The translations under genes were made by a program, and so were the position numbers. The notes beneath the pieces are model-generated. The model made no database searches and was not told where the DNA came from. It worked only from the letters and a program-made list of their open reading frames with translations. Source: Haloplanus vescus (GTDB lineage: Archaea > Halobacteriota > Halobacteria > Halobacteriales > Haloferacaceae). Taken from it: a stretch of 64,000 nt of DNA. Location of the stretch: NCBI RefSeq assembly GCF_900107665.1, contig NZ_FNQT01000001.1, forward strand, positions 846,398 through 910,397. The letters are read 5' to 3'. Below, piece by piece: positions 6,626 to 30,075 of the stretch; position 1 is the first letter of the stretch, and every line of letters begins with the position of its first letter.

Positions 6626-7564
6626 ATGAGTGCATTCTCAGCCATCGGCGAAGAGCGAGAGATAGACCGCGAAGAGTTCACGCCCACCCTCGAACCGCAG
6701 GCGACGTGGTGTCCGGGCTGTGGCGACTTCGGCGTCCTGAAGGCGCTGAAACAGGCCATGCCGGAAATCGGCCGCAACCCCGACGAGGTGTTGCTGGTCA
6801 CCGGCATCGGCTGTTCGGGCAAGCTCAACAGCTACTTCGAGTGTTACGGCTACCACTCGATTCACGGACGCTCGCTGCCCATCGCGCGCGCGGCCAAACT
6901 CGCCAACCCCGAACTCGAGGTCATCGCGGCCGGCGGCGACGGCGACGGCTACGGCATCGGCGGGAACCACTTCATGCACACCGCCCGCGAGAACCACGAC
7001 ATGACCTACATCGTCTTCGACAACGAAATCTTCGGCCTGACGAAAGGGCAGACCTCGCCCACGTCGCCGAAGGGCCACAAGTCGAAGACCCAACCCCACG
7101 GGAGCGCCAAGGACCCCATCCGACCCCTGTCGCTCGCCATCACCTCCGGCGCCTCCTACGTCGCCCGGACGGCGGCGGTCAACCCCAACCAGGCGAAGGA
7201 GATTCTCGTCGAGGCGATGCAACACGACGGCTTCGCCCACGTCGACTTCCTCACCCAGTGTCCGACCTGGAACAAGGACGCCCGACAGTACGTCCCCTAC
7301 ACCGACGTGAACGACTCCGACGACTACGACTTCGACCCGACCAACCGCGAAGAGGCGTCGAGAATGGCCACGGAGGCCGAACGGACGCTGTACGAGGGTG
7401 AAGTCCTCACCGGCCGGTTCTACGTCGACGAGGACCGACCGTCCTACTCCGAGGAGAAACAGGCCATCGGCGAGATGCCCGACGACCCCCTCGCAGAGCG
7501 CTACTTCGACGAGGACTACGAGTGGGAGCGCACCCACGACATGTTCCTCGACCGTCACAAGTAG
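6626..7564 (+). CDS. porB: 2-oxoacid:ferredoxin oxidoreductase beta subunit (PorB), TPP-binding
   Basis: Beta subunit carrying thiamine diphosphate and a 4Fe-4S cluster. Seen: WCPGCGDFG near residue 31 (two cluster Cys), GIGCSGK near residue 58, and the TPP/Mg signature GDGDGYGIGGNHF with a downstream NEIFGLTKGQ. The 312 residues agree with haloarchaeal PorB. It lies 3 bp behind porA in one operon. A hairpin followed by a T tract directly after the stop probably ends the transcript. Confidence 0.88.
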   Translation: MSAFSAIGEEREIDREEFTPTLEPQATWCPGCGDFGVLKALKQAMPEIGRNPDEVLLVTGIGCSGKLNSYFECYGYHSIHGRSLPIARAAKLANPELEVIAAGGDGDGYGIGGNHFMHTARENHDMTYIVFDNEIFGLTKGQTSPTSPKGHKSKTQPHGSAKDPIRPLSLAITSGASYVARTAAVNPNQAKEILVEAMQHDGFAHVDFLTQCPTWNKDARQYVPYTDVNDSDDYDFDPTNREEASRMATEAERTLYEGEVLTGRFYVDEDRPSYSEEKQAIGEMPDDPLAERYFDEDYEWERTHDMFLDRHK

Positions 7565-7603
7565 CCGAGACGAATCGATTTTCGTCTTCGGAACATATTT
7601 TTT
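7565..7603 (+). terminator. Hairpin and T tract ending porAB, overlapping the lrp promoter
   Basis: Arms CCGAGACGAA (7565-7574) and TTCGTCTTCGG (7581-7591) pair with one bulged base. A run of six T follows at 7598-7603. The same ATATTTTTT stretch lies 23-31 bp before the next ATG, so it could also serve as the TATA element of the Lrp gene. Confidence 0.5.
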
Positions 7604-7625
7604 CCGGGAACAGAAACGAAGAGGT

Positions 7626-8054
7626 ATGGGTACGCTCGATACGGAACGTCGCATTCTCTCTATCCTCGAGGAGGACGCACAGGCCTCCTACGGCGAGATT
7701 GCCGACCGGGCCGGGGTGTCGAAGCCGACGGTTCGAAAGTACATTCAACGCATGGAAGAAGACGGCATCATCGTCGGCTACTCCGCCGAAGTCGACCCGA
7801 AGAAACTCTCGGGGCAGTCGATTGCCATGGTCGGCATCGAAGTCGAGAGCGAACGCTACGTCGAAGTGACGCGCGCGCTCAAGGCGATGGACGCCGTGGA
7901 AGCACTCTACACGTCCTCCGGCGACCACATGCTGATGGCCGAAGTCCGGGCGCCGGACGGCGACGCTCTCGGCGACGTAATCAGCGACGACATTCGCGAC
8001 ATCGACGGCGTGACCGCGACGCATCCCTCTTTCCTCCAAGAGCGTCTGAAGTGA
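7626..8054 (+). CDS. lrpA1: Lrp/AsnC family transcriptional regulator
   Basis: 142 residues in the classic two-domain form. An N-terminal winged helix-turn-helix (about 1-60: RRILSILEEDAQASYGEI, GVSKPTVRKYI) is followed by a RAM effector-binding domain (about 68-140, with TSSGDHMLMAEV). Such proteins usually respond to amino acids and form octamers. The start ATG at 7626 gives the standard N-terminus. It follows porAB, the arrangement I remember for lrpA1 in Halobacterium salinarum, so control of central carbon or amino-acid metabolism is likely. The symbol rests on that synteny memory and is less certain than the family. Confidence 0.9.
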   Translation: MGTLDTERRILSILEEDAQASYGEIADRAGVSKPTVRKYIQRMEEDGIIVGYSAEVDPKKLSGQSIAMVGIEVESERYVEVTRALKAMDAVEALYTSSGDHMLMAEVRAPDGDALGDVISDDIRDIDGVTATHPSFLQERLK

Positions 8055-8091
8055 GCGGACTCTCGAGGGTCTGCGGCGCCGAAGCGTAGGT

Positions 8092-8163
8092 ATGGCTGGT
8101 GAGGGCGAGACGCTGCCTGGGGCTGACGATGTTGAAATTATGTTGCGGCCGTTCCCCGATTAG
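8092..8163 (+). other. Possible truncated reading frame at the left edge of the low-GC island
   Basis: An ATG preceded by TAGGT opens a 23-codon frame (MAGEGETLPG...LRPFPD) in high-GC, chromosome-like codon use. It stops within a few bases of the point where base composition falls. It could be the surviving start of a host gene interrupted by the island, or a chance frame. No family is recognisable from so few residues. Confidence 0.2.
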
Positions 8164-8597
8164 GACCTGTCATCGGTCGTCGTCTTATTCGCAATGGATG
8201 GACCAACTGCAGTATCGATATCAATCGAATCATCAGGGTCAGACTCACGAACGTTTTCGACATTACGAACGGTGTGACCCTTGTGGTTGAGTTCAAGGAC
8301 CTCCCCGATAGCCCATCTAGCGACTTTTCCATCGTATTCGTGGGCAAGTTCAGCAAGAATTGTACGAGGATCGACATAGATACACCATCCATCCTCACCG
8401 TATGATTCTCTGATACCAGTCTCGGTTTTTACCGTCCCGGTGAAGGCATCTGTATATTCAAGTATTTCCTCACCCAAATCGAATTTATCTGAATCTTCAG
8501 GAGCCTTTGAGCGGACAGCGTCATTCTCAATTGCGATGATAAGAGTAGTTTCAGCACCTACGGAGGCATATTCCTTGATCTCATCTATCATATCCAA
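8160..8597 (-). CDS. Hypothetical protein of the accessory island
   Basis: 145 residues (or 143 from the second Met), acidic, with no membrane segment or signal peptide. The N-terminal half (MIDEIKEYASVGAETTLIIAI) looks like an alternating alpha/beta fold. The middle has a WCIYVDPRTILAELAHEYDGK segment and the tail is disordered (DPDDSIDIDTA). I do not recognise a family. Its codon use is clearly more AT-rich than the flanking core genes, as in the two neighbouring island genes. It is transcribed in the same direction as the endonuclease gene, 150 bp downstream of it. Confidence 0.6.
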   Translation of the reverse strand: MDMIDEIKEYASVGAETTLIIAIENDAVRSKAPEDSDKFDLGEEILEYTDAFTGTVKTETGIRESYGEDGWCIYVDPRTILAELAHEYDGKVARWAIGEVLELNHKGHTVRNVENVRESDPDDSIDIDTAVGPSIANKTTTDDRS

Positions 8598-8729
8598 ATG
8601 TCATGCGAATATATAGAAGTAAAAATGCTAGGAATCAGGCACTATCAGAGGGGTATCTCACTAGTAGATTGAAATTTTTCTTTCTGTTGATTTGGTGAAT
8701 CAGGGCCATATAGAGACGAGCAAACTATG

Positions 8730-8745
8730 CCTCTGTCCGCAGAGG
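8730..8745 (-). terminator. Hairpin just after the endonuclease gene
   Basis: A perfect 6-bp inverted repeat, CCTCTG-TCCG-CAGAGG, lies 3 bp beyond the stop codon of the minus-strand gene at 8749. Its position suggests a transcription end signal or mRNA 3' structure. No clear T tract follows. Confidence 0.4.
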
Positions 8746-8748
8746 TCC

Positions 8749-9663
8749 CTATGAAATTTCGGAAGGCAGTTTGTCGTCGGGATTTTTGATTTCTGTTCTT
8801 AAAGATACACCAAAATTAACAGAATATATTTTTCCCTCGTTTCGGAGTATTCGCAACAATTTTTCCGCATAGGAAGTCTCCATTCCAAATTCGTTTTCGC
8901 ACTCTGAGATCACTTCCTTCCTTGGTGCCCCCTCTGGATCGGAGGAATCAACCTCGTCTTGTTTCTGACTCACAAGAGACAACATGGTTATTGCATTCTC
9001 AATGTCTGTCTCAGAAGCTACCCCGTCAAACTCCAAGTCTGGACTACTCGTATCGACCTTATCCTTAATGTTCCACCAATATTTCGTTGGTATCTCCGAT
9101 GGGCGTTCATTAGGTATACTACAATTCACCCAATGGCTCACGAACGCCACCTGATCTCCGTCTATCTTCTCGCCACACGTCGGACAGGTAATTGACGCTG
9201 TGAAGTCTCCATCAGAACTGTCATCCTCGTCATCTACAGGAGAGATACCAGCCTCCTCTTGATGATGTTGAATACGAGGGTCAGAGTGGAAATCTTTGTT
9301 TACCGAAGATGAATGCCTCTTGTTTCGGCTTTGAGAGTAGGTTGGAGAGTTGCCATCAATAGAGACAAGTTTGACCCCGCGATTTTCGGCGACTGCTTTC
9401 GCTTCAGAAGTGAATGAACTAGTAGTAATAACAATCGCACCGTGAATATCTGGCCGTGTCAAAAGACCAGATGTTTTCTGTACTGTAGGGCTACCAACGC
9501 GGTTTCCAGTAGCGTATGCCTTTGCCTGGACGGCATAATTTCTGCCATGCTTCTTGGCTATAATGTCCGCACCTCTATCATTTGTTGGTGGAGTGAGTTC
9601 AGTCCTAAAACCTTCTTTCTGCAGCCAACGGGCCACAGTCCTTTCAAATCGGTCGGCATCCAT
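8749..9663 (-). CDS. Mrr-like restriction endonuclease with C-terminal zinc finger
   Basis: 304 residues. Residues 1-105 carry the Mrr/PD-(D/E)xK nuclease core: FERTVARWLQKEGF, then D33 (RGADIIAKK) and the Q46-A-K48 pair (VQAKAY), followed by the hydrophobic IHGAIVITTSSF strand. Mrr enzymes are type IV restriction systems that cut modified foreign DNA; others of this fold serve in housekeeping. A linker of about 50 residues leads to a zinc finger, C160-x2-C163-x13-H177-x3-C181, and a helical C-terminal domain with EKLLRILRNEGKI that resembles a winged helix. Low GC and the adjoining dead integrase suggest acquisition by transfer. Nuclease fold is confident; the biological role is inferred. 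Confidence 0.78.
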   Translation of the reverse strand: MDADRFERTVARWLQKEGFRTELTPPTNDRGADIIAKKHGRNYAVQAKAYATGNRVGSPTVQKTSGLLTRPDIHGAIVITTSSFTSEAKAVAENRGVKLVSIDGNSPTYSQSRNKRHSSSVNKDFHSDPRIQHHQEEAGISPVDDEDDSSDGDFTASITCPTCGEKIDGDQVAFVSHWVNCSIPNERPSEIPTKYWWNIKDKVDTSSPDLEFDGVASETDIENAITMLSLVSQKQDEVDSSDPEGAPRKEVISECENEFGMETSYAEKLLRILRNEGKIYSVNFGVSLRTEIKNPDDKLPSEIS

Positions 9664-9761
9664 GTTACAGTGTTGACTCCTACGATTACTTGATATTTAT
9701 CTCAATTAGTAACAGATGAGCGATAGCGAACTCTTCACAGCGATTGCAGATCAGTCTATGA

Positions 9762-9781
9762 ATCTACGAACTATCGTAGAT
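9762..9781 (-). terminator. Perfect 8-bp hairpin over the stop of the 142-residue island gene
   Basis: ATCTACGA-ACTA-TCGTAGAT is a perfect palindrome with a 4-nt loop, spanning the minus-strand stop codon at 9771-9773. It may end the transcript or be a protein-binding site. It is short and not followed by a strong T tract. Confidence 0.35.
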
Positions 9782-10199
9782 TAAGGTTGAAATTAGGACT
9801 TGGGAGGGAATCAACCAGTCGAATAATCCACTCTCGTTTTCGCTCAGTTTGATCTCGTCCGACAATGCTCTCGGCTCGATCAAATCGGAGTCGTACTTTC
9901 TTTGCTTCATTCCTAATCATCTCTCTAGCACGCTCCCACTCTTCAGCAGTATACGGTGGTTTATCCACTACGTATGCTAAGGCGGGCCTGTTCGCTATCT
10001 GCTTACCTGGGTTATGTTTCGCCAGCAAAGTACCTACTTCACCTTCAAAATCCGCTCTCTGTAGATCCAACTTTGAAGGGGTCAAATCGGAGAGTGAGTC
10101 CACTGTGTATTCTTCATGCCACAGCTCAAACTGTTCCTTTATCGCCTGTGATGGAAGTTCGGGATCTTCCTGCTCCCGAACGTAACTTTGCACATCCAT
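9771..10199 (-). CDS. Hypothetical protein of the accessory island
   Basis: 142 residues from the ATG at 10199 (MDVQSYVREQ). An upstream ATG at 10286 would add 29 residues that look non-coding. It is helical and basic at the end (KKVRLRFDRAE, DQTERKREWIIRLVD), with no membrane segment. No known family is recognised. It has the same AT-rich codon use as the endonuclease gene that follows on the same strand, so the two may have arrived together. A role as an accessory or nucleic-acid-binding subunit would be speculation. Confidence 0.5.
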   Translation of the reverse strand: MDVQSYVREQEDPELPSQAIKEQFELWHEEYTVDSLSDLTPSKLDLQRADFEGEVGTLLAKHNPGKQIANRPALAYVVDKPPYTAEEWERAREMIRNEAKKVRLRFDRAESIVGRDQTERKREWIIRLVDSLPSPNFNLNLR

Positions 10200-10333
10200 A
10201 CGTGAAATATATGTCTTGTTGACAAAAATAGTGGCGACAGTATAGCCAGTGATGATATTTGTATGGTGATTTATTCCAAGCCGCACTCACTCCCTCTGCT
10301 TAGTACACTCAGAGATCAGCCAAGAAGATACAA

Positions 10334-10540
10334 TTACCGCAGCCACGTGTGGCGGCCGTCACTTACTACGTCGAGATTCTCAACTTATGTCTTATCAACA
10401 TCCTTGCCTTCACACTATCGGACAAAGAATCCGAGTTAGTATTCCTTCGCCTGGACTGAGTTGAGACTTAGATCCCCGTCAACGTCTTGGAGGTACATCT
10501 CCAAAGCGTCACGAGGAGTAATCGGCTCAAATTCGGTCAT
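10334..10540 (-). pseudogene. Degenerate N-terminus of a tyrosine recombinase (phage-type integrase)
   Basis: From ATG at 10540 the frame reads MTEFEPITPRDALEMYLQD, the typical opening of haloarchaeal XerC/D-like integrases (SAM-like N-terminal domain). It then meets a stop at 10436-10438. The same frame continues with LGFFVR, a second stop where a Trp is usual, CEGKDVDKT, a third stop, then VENLDVVSDGRHTWLR. These pieces line up in order with the family's YRLxxFVRWC...ID.LNDLxGR...RLWR pattern as I remember it. The catalytic domain is absent. This is a decayed relic marking the right edge of the island, 9 bp from dinB on the opposite strand. Confidence 0.72.
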
Positions 10541-10549
10541 AGTTGCCTT

Positions 10550-11827
10550 ATGAATCCCCCCGAATCAGAGCGGAATCTCGAAGATTGGTCTGACGAGAAT
10601 ACGCCCGGAGTGAGTCCAAACGCCGAAGACCGCATCGTCTGTCACGTCGATATGGACTGCTTCTACGCCTCCTGTGAGCGCCTGCGAGAGCCGTCGCTAC
10701 GGGGTGAGCCGGTCGTCGTCGGCATGGGCTACGAGAGCGGGGAGCCACACGGCGCCGTCGCCACCGCGAGTTACGAGGCGCGAGCGTACGGCGTCGAGAG
10801 CGCCCAGCCGATTTCGACGGCGCTCGACCGCCTGCCGCGAGTGACGACGGCCGAAGACGACCCGGACCTCGACCGCGCCGACGCCGGCCACTACCGCCCG
10901 GTCGACCTCGACTACTACCGCGAGGTGGCGGGGCAAATCAAGGAGATTCTCCACGACTGCGCGGACCGGGTGCGCGAGGTGAGCATCGACGAGGCGTATC
11001 TGGACGTGACCGAGCGGACGGCGTGGACCGTCGTCGACGGCCGCCCGCTGGCGGCGGGGTACGCCCGCCACGTCAAGGAGCGCATCGCCCGCGAGGTGGG
11101 CGTGCCCGCGAGCGTCGGCGTCGCGCCGACGATGAGCGCCGCGAAGGTGGCGAGCGACCACGACAAGCCCGACGGACTGGTGGTGGTCGAACCGGGCGCA
11201 GTCCGCGAGTTCTTCGCGCCGCTGCCGGTCGAGGCGGTCCACGGCGTCGGCCCGGTGACGGCGCGCGAACTGGGCGAGCTGGGCGTCGAGACGGCGGGTG
11301 ACCTCGCTGCTGCCGACCCCGGCGTGCTCCGGGAGCGGTTCGGCGAGCGCGGTCAGACCCTCTACGACCGGGCGCGGGGCGACGACGACCGGGAGGTGAC
11401 GCCGACGGGCCGGCCCAAGAGCCTCTCGCGAGAGTCGGCGTTCACGGAGGCGACGGACGACGCTGACCGACAGCGCGAGACGGTCGCGGGGCTAGCGGCG
11501 GACGTGGCCGAGCGAGCCGAGGGCGAGGACGCGCTCTACCGGACCATCGGCATCAAGGCCGTGACGCCGCCGTACGACGTGAACACGCGCGAGCGGTCGC
11601 TGCCGGGTCCCGTCGCCGACCCGGACCTCGTCCGCGAGGTGGCGCTCGACCTCCTCCAAGAGTTCGCGGGGACGGCGGTTCGCAAACTCGGCGTGCGCGT
11701 CTCGAACCTCCAGTTCGACGCGGCGTCGCAGGCACGGCTCGACGGGTGGGAGACGGAGGGCGAGGAGTCGGCCACCGAGTCACGGGAGCGTGACGGGCAG
11801 TCGTCGCTGACGGATTTCGAGGGGTAG
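10550..11827 (+). CDS. dinB: DNA polymerase IV (Y-family translesion polymerase)
   Basis: Bypasses template lesions. The ATG at 10550 gives 425 residues and the usual short variable leader before CHVDMDCFYASCE, whose D34 and D36 are metal-binding; upstream codons belong to the integrase relic. The second catalytic motif SIDEAYLDV supplies D147 and E148. A helix-hairpin-helix (VHGVGPVTARELGELGV) and a little-finger domain follow. The end, SLTDFEG, resembles a PCNA-interacting peptide (QSSLTDF), which fits recruitment to the replication clamp. Confidence 0.95.
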   Translation: MNPPESERNLEDWSDENTPGVSPNAEDRIVCHVDMDCFYASCERLREPSLRGEPVVVGMGYESGEPHGAVATASYEARAYGVESAQPISTALDRLPRVTTAEDDPDLDRADAGHYRPVDLDYYREVAGQIKEILHDCADRVREVSIDEAYLDVTERTAWTVVDGRPLAAGYARHVKERIAREVGVPASVGVAPTMSAAKVASDHDKPDGLVVVEPGAVREFFAPLPVEAVHGVGPVTARELGELGVETAGDLAAADPGVLRERFGERGQTLYDRARGDDDREVTPTGRPKSLSRESAFTEATDDADRQRETVAGLAADVAERAEGEDALYRTIGIKAVTPPYDVNTRERSLPGPVADPDLVREVALDLLQEFAGTAVRKLGVRVSNLQFDAASQARLDGWETEGEESATESRERDGQSSLTDFEG

Positions 11828-27461: not shown

Positions 27462-28280
27462 ATGCAGCGAAATCAGCGGAGTTTGCGGAAGATCGGAACG
27501 GTCGTCGGGGTCGTCTTCCTCGCGCTCGCAGTCCTGAGCGGGTCGACACTCGCCGTGAGCGGTCTGTCGGTCACCTCGCTCACGAACGCAGAGGTCGAGA
27601 GCGGACAGACGACGACGCACACGCTCGAATATCAGGCGGACGGCATCAGCGCCGACGGCACGACCGACGTGCTGTTCGTCCGCTTCCCCGACACGTACGC
27701 CGGGAACATCTCCGTCTCGGGCGCCGAGTTCGTCAACCGGACGAGCGGGGCGACCGTCTCGGTCAGTTCCAGTACGAGCATCGTCGACGGTCCCGACGGT
27801 GACGGCGTGCAGGAGACGCTCCGTACCGGCATCAGCAACGACGCCGACTACGACACCGACGACATTCGAGCGACCTACGAGTTCAGCCTGACCCATCCCA
27901 CGGTCGAGGAGGACACCTCCTACGACGTGACGGTCATCGCGCAGGACTCGTCGACGAGTGAAGCCCGAACCACGGCCACGGACGCCATCACCGTCGTCGC
28001 CGGCAGTACGTCGAGCACGGCCACCGCGACGAGTACGTCCACGGCGACTGCGACGAGTACCAGTACGTCGACGGCTACCGCGACGACCACCGCCACGAGC
28101 GAATCGACGGCAACGCCGACCGAGAGTTCCATGGACGAAGGCACGGCGACCCCCACCGAGAGCTCGATGGGTGAAGACACCGCGACGCCTACCGAAACCA
28201 GCGGGAGCGGTCCCGGCTTCGGAACCGTCACGGCGCTACTCGCCGTCGTCGCAGTGACGCTCCTGCTCCGCCGAGACTGA
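27462..28280 (+). CDS. Secreted surface protein with PGF-CTERM sorting signal
   Basis: 272 residues. An N-terminal signal peptide (IGTVVGVVFLALAVLSGSTLAVS, positions 11-33) is followed by a beta-rich domain of about 140 residues. A long Thr/Ser/Ala-rich region (about 185-245, likely O-glycosylated) precedes GPGFG and a hydrophobic segment ending RRD. This tripartite end is the PGF-CTERM signal processed and lipid-anchored by archaeosortase ArtA. A TTTATC element about 33 bp before the ATG is a plausible TATA box. The folded domain is not recognised. Confidence 0.82.
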   Translation: MQRNQRSLRKIGTVVGVVFLALAVLSGSTLAVSGLSVTSLTNAEVESGQTTTHTLEYQADGISADGTTDVLFVRFPDTYAGNISVSGAEFVNRTSGATVSVSSSTSIVDGPDGDGVQETLRTGISNDADYDTDDIRATYEFSLTHPTVEEDTSYDVTVIAQDSSTSEARTTATDAITVVAGSTSSTATATSTSTATATSTSTSTATATTTATSESTATPTESSMDEGTATPTESSMGEDTATPTETSGSGPGFGTVTALLAVVAVTLLLRRD

Positions 28281-28339
28281 TACAGGTAGAGTTCGTCGGG
28301 ACGCCCTGACGACTATCCCTCCACAGCTGAAATTCTTCT

Positions 28340-28367
28340 CGCGGCATCGCCGCGTCAGGTCATTTTT
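28340..28367 (+). terminator. Hairpin plus T run after the PGF-CTERM gene
   Basis: CGCGGC-ATC-GCCGCG (28340-28354) forms a perfect 6-bp stem. A T-rich stretch (CATTTTTCTG) follows within 10 bp. It begins 60 bp beyond the stop at 28280. Confidence 0.45.
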
Positions 28368-28764
28368 CTGCCCATCCGAATCGACCAAGAGAGTTGTATC
28401 GTCGACCGTTCGGATGGCGCGTCGGCGCCGTCGCTCTTCTTGGGGTGGAATCAGCGAGACGATAGCCGTCGCTCAGGAATGTTAGAGAGACGGTGTAGGT
28501 CAGTCAGTGCGAAACTACACGTGGAATACACGTGAGCGAAAGGTGACTGCTGACCGTGCCGCCTATTCTATAGGTATCGTCGGTGGTATAAAACGGCTCC
28601 GGTGTTCGGCTCAGGCGAATTATATCCACAGAGATCTGCGTGAATAATTAGTAAATTTGATTATATAATTGTCATATCCTATCGGAGAAAGAAGGAAATG
28701 GCAGCACTGGTGGACAACTCCAGGAGGGCGAGAGATTTACCCAGTCAATAATGCCGATTGATTT
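28368..28764. other. Gene-free stretch, falling into AT-rich sequence
   Basis: No coding frame with haloarchaeal codon bias is seen. Two CACGTG palindromes lie 11 bp apart (28518-28523 and 28529-28534), one helical turn. A TATAAAA element is at 28587-28593. From about 28600 the composition falls sharply in GC. No transposon end or known RNA was recognised. Confidence 0.5.
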
Positions 28765-29082
28765 TTGTCACCCGAATGTATATTAATATACAGGTTGACT
28801 GAATCCGAGAGCGCCTTGTTCAAAGCAAGTAGCGATGTTATTGGCGGCGCATTTGCTGGATTTGTCACGGCGCTAGTTTTACAGGGAATCCCAGAATTAG
28901 CCGTTCAAATCCTAGCATTGATCCTCATAATTATGCTAGCATTTCTTTATAAAGCGCATGAAAAGGCCACTCAAATACCACCCAAGCTATCTGAAAAGAT
29001 TCGAAACCTCCGGAATCAGGAGTATGATTCTATTCAGCCAGATCGAGTTGAAACGGACTGGCCCCCCAATCGGGGTTCGTAA
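28765..29082 (+). CDS. Hypothetical small membrane protein in an AT-rich patch
   Basis: 105 residues if it begins at TTG 28765; no ATG fits the N-terminus. Two membrane segments (VIGGAFAGFVTALVLQGI and AVQILALILIIMLAFLY) precede a charged cytosolic tail with KAHEKATQIPPKLSEKIRNL. No family is recognised. Codon use is AT-rich compared with neighbours, which suggests recent gain. The predicted start is weak. Confidence 0.4.
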   Translation: MSPECILIYRLTESESALFKASSDVIGGAFAGFVTALVLQGIPELAVQILALILIIMLAFLYKAHEKATQIPPKLSEKIRNLRNQEYDSIQPDRVETDWPPNRGS

Positions 29083-29223
29083 TTAGAAATTATTTGACCG
29101 ATGAACCTTGCGGAAGGTATTGAATCTTTACTTGAACATGGGTCCCAAAATGCGAAATTGGACGATCGGCTACTCCACACGAGTTATTTACCAGTCTCAA
29201 GTTGAGTAAGGTCCATCATCACA

Positions 29224-30075
29224 TCATTTGACATCCCGCAGTATCTCCTTGTTCTTGAAGAAGCCCACTCTGCTGAGTAGTCCTATGATTATCCCCCACA
29301 CAAACCCCGCCGCGTGAGCAAAGACGTTCGTAAACGTCCCACCCTCCACAAGCGCCTCGGAGTCGGGAAACAGCCCCAGAATCAACACGCCGAGGACGAC
29401 GCCCACCAACCCCACCGCGCCCGCCGTAATCACGGCCTCGCGTCGCGCCGCGCCGTCGGGAATCTCGACGCCGTTCCGAACGTACGGGACGAACACCAGT
29501 AGTCCGCCGAGAACGACGAGGCCCGTCACGGAGGACCGGAATCCGCCCGCGTAGCGCAGGTCGATCAACTGCATCAGGAGGAGGAAGACGACCAATCCGA
29601 TGGCGTAGGCAAGTTCGCCGTCGTGGCGCTCTTTCACGAACACGTAGAGAGCGACGAGGAGGAAGCCACCGAGGCCGCCGACGACGCCGGAGAACCCGCG
29701 GGAGACGGGGTCCGCCTCGGGGTACTGGAACTGGAAGATGGCGTAACTGGTGAGGTTGACGAGGATTGGGAGGGCGATGAGGTGAAGCGGGAGCGTACGA
29801 CGGAACCACGGGAGTTCGTCGACGTCGAGACAGAGGGCGTAGGTGTAGGTGGCGGTGAGGCCGTAGCCGAGGAGATTGCTGTAGAGGTGGAGGTTGGAGG
29901 CGTGGACGTAAGCGGCGGTGAGGAGGGTGTAGATATTGAAGCGGGTGTGGTCGAAGACTAGTAGGTTCTGGAGGGTGGTAGGAGTGAGGAAGTGGATTGC
30001 GATGAGGAGGAGGGGAATCGAAAGAAGAGCGGTAGCGTCCAACGTGATGGATCGGCGGACCGCCGTATCGGTCAT
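29224..30075 (-). CDS. Rhomboid-family intramembrane serine protease (putative)
   Basis: 283 residues with about seven membrane segments. The rhomboid elements appear in order: YVHASNLHLYSNLLGY near 56-71 (the H...H...N motif), RGFSGVVGGLGG near 126-137 (GxSG, catalytic Ser), and NVFAHAAGFVWG near 255 (catalytic His). Rhomboids cut within membrane helices of other proteins. Substrates in haloarchaea are little known. The arrangement supports an active enzyme, although the family call is by motif only. Confidence 0.75.
   Translation of the reverse strand: MTDTAVRRSITLDATALLSIPLLLIAIHFLTPTTLQNLLVFDHTRFNIYTLLTAAYVHASNLHLYSNLLGYGLTATYTYALCLDVDELPWFRRTLPLHLIALPILVNLTSYAIFQFQYPEADPVSRGFSGVVGGLGGFLLVALYVFVKERHDGELAYAIGLVVFLLLMQLIDLRYAGGFRSSVTGLVVLGGLLVFVPYVRNGVEIPDGAARREAVITAGAVGLVGVVLGVLILGLFPDSEALVEGGTFTNVFAHAAGFVWGIIIGLLSRVGFFKNKEILRDVK

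Follow-up and report, generated by a model that had tools for sequence, protein, structure and literature searches.

At the border between a low-G+C island and G+C-rich sequence in the genome of Haloplanus vescus, adjoining the DNA polymerase IV gene dinB, lies a short stretch that resembles the beginning of a haloarchaeal tyrosine recombinase gene but is interrupted by stop codons. This locus raises the questions of what kind of mobile element left the remnant behind, whether the neighboring genes arrived with it, and what the insertion meant for dinB. The window analyzed here is a stretch of 64,000 nucleotides (contig NZ_FNQT01000001.1, positions 846,398 to 910,397), to which all coordinates refer; its relevant features are collected in Table 1. 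The gene that flanks the island on the left (7626..8054), named from its sequence, is presumably that of an Lrp/AsnC-like regulator and is called lrp in the following.

Table 1. Features of the island in the window and of its two flanks.
Feature	Position	Strand	Remarks
Lrp/AsnC-like regulator gene (presumed)	7626..8054	+	Left flank; dinB follows in 11/11 sister species
Copy of dinB-upstream motif	8053..8066	+	At the old dinB start; motif present in 10/11 sisters
Orphan old dinB start	8092..8131	+	ATG and ~13 codons (MAGEGETLPGADD)
Left island junction	near 8131		Directly after the orphan dinB start
ORF1	8160..8597	-	145 aa, function unknown; homolog in 1/169 other family genomes
Mrr-type restriction endonuclease gene (predicted)	8749..9663	-	PF04471 (Mrr_cat), 85.6 bits, cut-off 21
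ORF2	9771..10199	-	142 aa, function unknown; homologs on mobile-looking loci and plasmids
Integrase relic	10361..10540	-	First 60 residues, three stops, catalytic domain missing
dinB, DNA polymerase IV	10550..11827	+	PF00817, PF11799; NF002677 above cut-off; open frame
New dinB start (judged element-supplied)	10550..10627	+	ATG 10550 or possibly GTG 10610
Right attachment core	10628..10659	+	32 bp shared by eight related elements; encodes DRIVCHVDMD and part of C

The Integrase Relic

Read on the minus strand, positions 10540-10361 encode an integrase N-terminus of 60 residues with in-frame stops at residues 35 (TAA), 42 (TAG), and 52 (TAA), where intact relatives have Q or R, W, and R, respectively. 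Against a profile of eight close relatives the relic scored 86.1 bits with residues 1-60 aligned, whereas the best of the shuffled relic sequences (1,793 scored of 2,000 made) reached 9.8 bits, which confirms the reading through three stops that the initial annotation of this DNA had proposed. That annotation had also named the lack of a profile match beyond the first 34 residues as a refuting result. Since the alignment to the eight-relative profile runs to residue 60, homology extends well past residue 34 and stops near position 10361; the annotation had let the relic continue to 10334, and for these last nine residues (10334-10360) integrase homology was not supported by the profile alignment. 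With X in place of the stops the relic had integrase-frame matches in each of the 11 sister genomes (best E 6.5e-9), and an order-wide search retrieved a group of near relatives sharing 52-67% identity with it (best E 8.9e-22), with matches at E <= 1e-6 in 81 of the 392 genomes of the order, its own genome counted. In general databases, searches yielded no match in Pfam at E <= 1, none in NCBIfam at 0.01, none among phage records by tblastn, and one weak match in PHROGs (E 0.0083) to a family of unknown function. The relic is missed by general models because it is too short and too divergent, and the profile search that had been suggested would therefore have failed had it relied on Pfam or NCBIfam.

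The absence of the catalytic domain, likewise claimed at the outset, was borne out: a search through every frame of 8041-10700 failed to find one and returned weak matches only. One of these (E 0.003), located inside ORF2, was not counted because the homolog of ORF2 shares that stretch. The three-stop reading could in principle represent a working gene that is expressed by stop-codon readthrough or recoding, as the homologous frame is kept over 60 codons, but two kinds of stop are involved, one of them stands at an otherwise invariant tryptophan, and a catalytic domain is lacking in every frame; the probability of this explanation is practically negligible.

The intact relatives indicate the family from which the fragment derives. 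An intact integrase of the clade described below shares 41.4% identity, over 98%, with that of Saline Natrinema sp. J7-1 virus 2, and in two intact members the Phage_integrase domain (PF00589) scored above the cut-off in both and Phage_int_SAM (PF02899) above it in one and just below it in the other. SNJ2-type integrases are characterized by the combination of these two domains, and family membership by an identity of 30% or more across 60% of the protein, according to the available part of a review (PMC8371274). Sequence identity and predicted domains place the intact relatives among the SNJ2-type integrases. The relic itself lacks the catalytic domain and is a pseudogene fragment, not a working SNJ2-type integrase.

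Position of the Island Relative to dinB

In all 11 sister species, each represented by one genome as in all comparisons, lrp is followed by dinB without the island of the window between them, so that the comparison of relatives recommended in the initial annotation did reveal sites free of it. The gap between the aligned ends of the two genes ranges in the sisters from 2 bases to ~1.5 kb. The longer gaps, found in four sisters, contained no match to cargo or integrase that exceeded chance, and the short DNA matches in them represent dinB's own upstream region. In the window, left of the island, positions 8055-8131 correspond to the old dinB upstream region and approximately the first 13 codons of the gene, a match that none of 1,000 shuffles equaled against each of five sisters. 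On the right, dinB is open and has its full domains. The island sits inside the first codons of dinB, whose start has been replaced. The initial annotation had taken the relic to mark an island boundary at dinB, and the low-G+C border beside the gene agrees with this; the boundary itself lies within dinB's first codons, and the splitting of dinB by the island was absent from that annotation.

The new stretch at the beginning of dinB (10550..10627) is judged to be element-supplied by analogy with the relatives described below. Its first ATG (10550) is separated from the integrase ATG (10540) by nine bases. A second copy of the dinB-upstream motif occurs inside this stretch at 10568-10581, ~40 bases before the possible GTG start at 10610, and was unusual by shuffling (8 of 5,000), yet 2 of 245 host segments match equally well. 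At the left end of the island an attachment core was not recognizable, even as a decayed copy, and the window contains no direct repeat.

Other deviations were seen at the same site in the sister species and elsewhere in the window. In one sister (G003) the lrp-dinB gap contains a 1.5 kb insert with a TnpB-like frame (L051, ~6979-8470 in dinB orientation), which by eye resembles the TnpB of an IS200/IS605-type element; the lrp-dinB region therefore takes other inserts too. Another species (G008; L050) is the sole sister without the conserved upstream motif; its dinB start is different, and the gene is preceded by a 0.4 kb gap of lower G+C content, which might be another old relic although it yielded no integrase. 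In the window, a second dip in G+C content (0.49-0.54) occurs at 28001-29500, with no ORF of at least 120 aa between ~28280 and 29219.

A Clade of dinB-Linked Integrases

Six loci with open integrase frames were set apart from all others by their identity of 52-67% to the relic (G240, G267, G130, G257, G223, and G142). In all six the integrase gene adjoins dinB directly and divergently, with low-G+C sequence beyond the integrase. A further locus at 48% identity to the relic (G421) is likewise divergent beside dinB, its integrase gene being frameshifted. Genomes in which dinB adjoins the integrase include those of Halorubrum salipaludis WN019 (G130), Natrinema pallidum DSM 3751 (G240), and Halomicroarcula sp. 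SYNS111 (G421). The search among relatives that had been advised thus also showed that other genera have intact integrases of this clade at dinB. A profile built from the six close loci (A1) was run over three families comprising 125, 146, and 170 genomes and identified further members in G131 (571 bits) and G144 (568 bits), neither of which had been part of the profile, followed by next-best matches of at most 414 bits. Both were found before their neighbors were examined, and both proved to adjoin dinB. Clade members are located at dinB in nine of nine cases, the window being the tenth.

Among the other integrase loci that scored best in the searches, dinB was present within a flank of ~1.5 kb in none of 72 and none of 11. 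The former number derives from a set of 82 loci, 10 with dinB, of which L165-L167 repeat L088, L090, and L091, leaving seven to be counted; the latter derives from a second set of 15, four with dinB, in which G130 and G142 are repeats of earlier ones. At least one locus (G082: L108 = L209) is present in both sets. A tree calculated from 38 integrases placed the eight full-length dinB-linked sequences in one group with a support of 100/100.

SNJ2-type integrases are very common in haloarchaea, and the clade profile, at the thresholds applied, matched 111 of 125, 115 of 146, and 101 of 170 genomes in the three families; a fragment of unrelated integrase DNA might thus have landed beside dinB by chance. 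This is very improbable, however, as the nearest relatives of the relic are those of the dinB-linked clade, with the identities of 52-67% given above versus at most 48% for integrases located elsewhere, and as the relic keeps the distance and orientation of the clade to the attachment core. In the window 103 bases lie between the integrase ATG and the H codon of the core, compared with 81-179 bases in six relatives, whose layout, with the integrase gene read away from dinB, is retained.

A tRNA gene was also considered as target and ruled out, since scans of the window and of six element loci detected no tRNA gene. Neither a single clade integrase nor the clade alignment, used as queries, retrieved anything from viral contigs. 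Of the 381 genomes with a match to the dinB start, eight show two such matches, and five of these are known elements (G142, G223, G240, G257, and G267), a count that misses elements with short repeats, for example those of G130 and G421. Two dinB-start matches each were also observed in G216, G369, and G284, representing either further occupied sites or dinB paralogs.

Anatomy of Related Elements and Reconstruction of the Island

A direct repeat around the HVDMDC codons of dinB was found in all eight relatives with both ends in view, its copies being 95-100% identical; G240 was left out of this set, its contig ending before the far end of the element. The lengths of repeat and element, the latter by coordinate subtraction, are 113 bp and ~15.7 kb in G267, 44 bp and ~8.0 kb in G130, 50 bp and ~15.6 kb in G257, 65 bp and ~14.4 kb in G223, 118 bp and ~7.1 kb in G142, 39 bp and ~7.1 kb in G421, 111 bp and ~10.9 kb in G131, and 152 bp and ~8.6 kb in G144. 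Common to all eight is a core of 32 bp. Relative to the first base of the H codon, it starts 15 bases upstream and ends 16 bases downstream. In the six pairs of copies examined, the far copy is preceded by a sister-type dinB start, usually with an LPG motif, and the sequence departs from dinB after the repeat, whereas the near copy has a different start before it and the full dinB after it. The old start has therefore been orphaned, and the element supplies a new one. Behind the element-supplied start the dinB frame is open, and the sequence upstream of the core differs between the old and the new start. Insertion into the 5' coding region with a direct repeat (8/8), together with a new in-frame start codon, identifies these relatives as gene-start-replacing elements. 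A plasmid- or virus-like nature of the clade elements is suggested by predicted domains of the Rep type (DUF1424) in that of G257 and of the NrS-1-polymerase type in that of G421.

On the basis of these results we consider it highly probable (approximately 0.9) that the relic is the integrase remnant of an element belonging to a haloarchaeal clade whose integration site is the HVDMDC codons near the start of dinB. The island would then, by analogy with the relatives, be the remnant of a dinB element. As the sequences of the eight relatives show, integration at these codons cuts off the old dinB start of the host, which stays behind as a short orphan beyond the other end of the element, and the element's own copy of the core, placed behind a new start codon, restores an open dinB frame. 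In the window, the catalytic domain of the integrase and the left core are missing, with the orphan start, the right core, the new start, and the N-terminus of the integrase remaining. The element in the window is probably no longer able to leave, because both parts needed for leaving, the integrase and the left core, are gone. The missing catalytic domain and the unrecognizable left attachment core support the earlier suggestion that the element lost its integrase and became fixed. Such a decayed element presumably cannot excise by itself, and dinB would now be dependent on the upstream sequence that the element supplied.

Comparison with Known Integration Sites

As a target of such elements dinB appears to be unreported in the literature searched: no report of haloarchaeal or other archaeal integration at dinB was found in the full texts searched, a collection with few subscription journals. 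The members of the SNJ2-type integrases and pleolipoviruses described in the accessible sections of the cited works use tRNA genes, whereas the clade found here uses dinB. Specifically, tRNA genes serve haloarchaeal pleolipovirus-type proviruses (PMC7911831, PMC5867852) and are the target of most haloarchaeal tailed proviruses (PMC8651126), again as stated in the portions available. Similar insertions are found in bacteria. As far as the accessible text of the report describes them, the mutS elements of Vibrio splendidus 12B01 and other bacteria resemble the dinB elements in occupying conserved-motif codons near the start of the gene and in supplying a new start; they differ in that their excision and phenotype were measured, whereas the dinB elements are known from sequence alone (PMC5296598). 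The SpyCI islands of Streptococcus pyogenes, in the sections available, likewise occupy the 5' end of a gene for DNA repair, in this case mutL, but are bacterial phage-like islands (PMC3430984). In one of them, SpyCIM5, int has been lost through a deletion and mutL is driven by a promoter within the int pseudogene; the loss of the integrase is shared with the element in the window (PMC3430984). Within the Archaea, thaumarchaeal elements share with the dinB elements an attachment site inside a protein gene that was recognized via empty sites, but the 14 protein-gene elements given in the available part of that study are in 3'-distal regions, whereas the dinB elements replace the 5' end (PMC6563490).

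With these elements, dinB would join mutS and mutL, in another domain of life, as a mutation-control gene whose start is replaced by an element. The clade further represents archaeal integrases with a target that can be read from the sequence, namely the codons of a conserved motif and not a tRNA gene, and this makes the expression of occupied versus empty dinB directly testable. The window would represent the last stage, in which the element has decayed but continues to supply the beginning of dinB. A more speculative and rather doubtful idea is that the clade elements act as a switch on translesion synthesis that tunes the mutation rate of the host and that has been frozen by decay in the window. 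If so, integration would put the gene of the error-prone polymerase under the start and promoter of the element, and excision would return it to those of the host.

Origin of the Island Genes

The product of the central island gene (8749..9663) is, by its domain match, predicted to be an Mrr-type restriction endonuclease. Homologs of ORF2 were found in 3 of 169 other genomes of the family and in 2 of 72,556 plasmid records, and one of them adjoins an ORF resembling a tyrosine recombinase. According to the initial annotation, the element that left the relic also brought the endonuclease. The position of the gene and the presence of Mrr-domain genes in two of the eight related elements (G257 and G421) speak for this view, short of proof, and the Mrr endonuclease likely arrived with the dinB element; ORF1, the Mrr gene, and ORF2 would then be what remains of its cargo.

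Alternatively, the relic and the split dinB could derive from a dinB element, and the Mrr gene, ORF1, and ORF2 could have entered later or separately. The eight related elements contain no homolog of ORF1 or ORF2, the Mrr genes of the two elements mentioned are only 32-35% identical to that of the window over ~100 residues, and the TnpB-like frame in the lrp-dinB gap of another sister shows that other inserts are taken up in this region. On the other hand, the orphan start and the relic enclose all three genes, in equally low G+C, and the occurrence of Mrr-domain genes in related elements also speaks against separate entry, which we regard as the less probable course of events, albeit one of appreciable weight.

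The two plasmid-borne homologs of ORF2, from Halosimplex aquaticum and Natrinema caseinilyticum (L076, L077), lie in one shared neighborhood that contains a sliding clamp, an AAA ATPase, TIGR02391, an M48 protease, and a VWA protein. In the 15.7 kb dinB element of G267 (L119, L111), an ATPase-like frame of 841 aa and a methylase-like frame of 894 aa were observed, which by eye resemble a defence operon.
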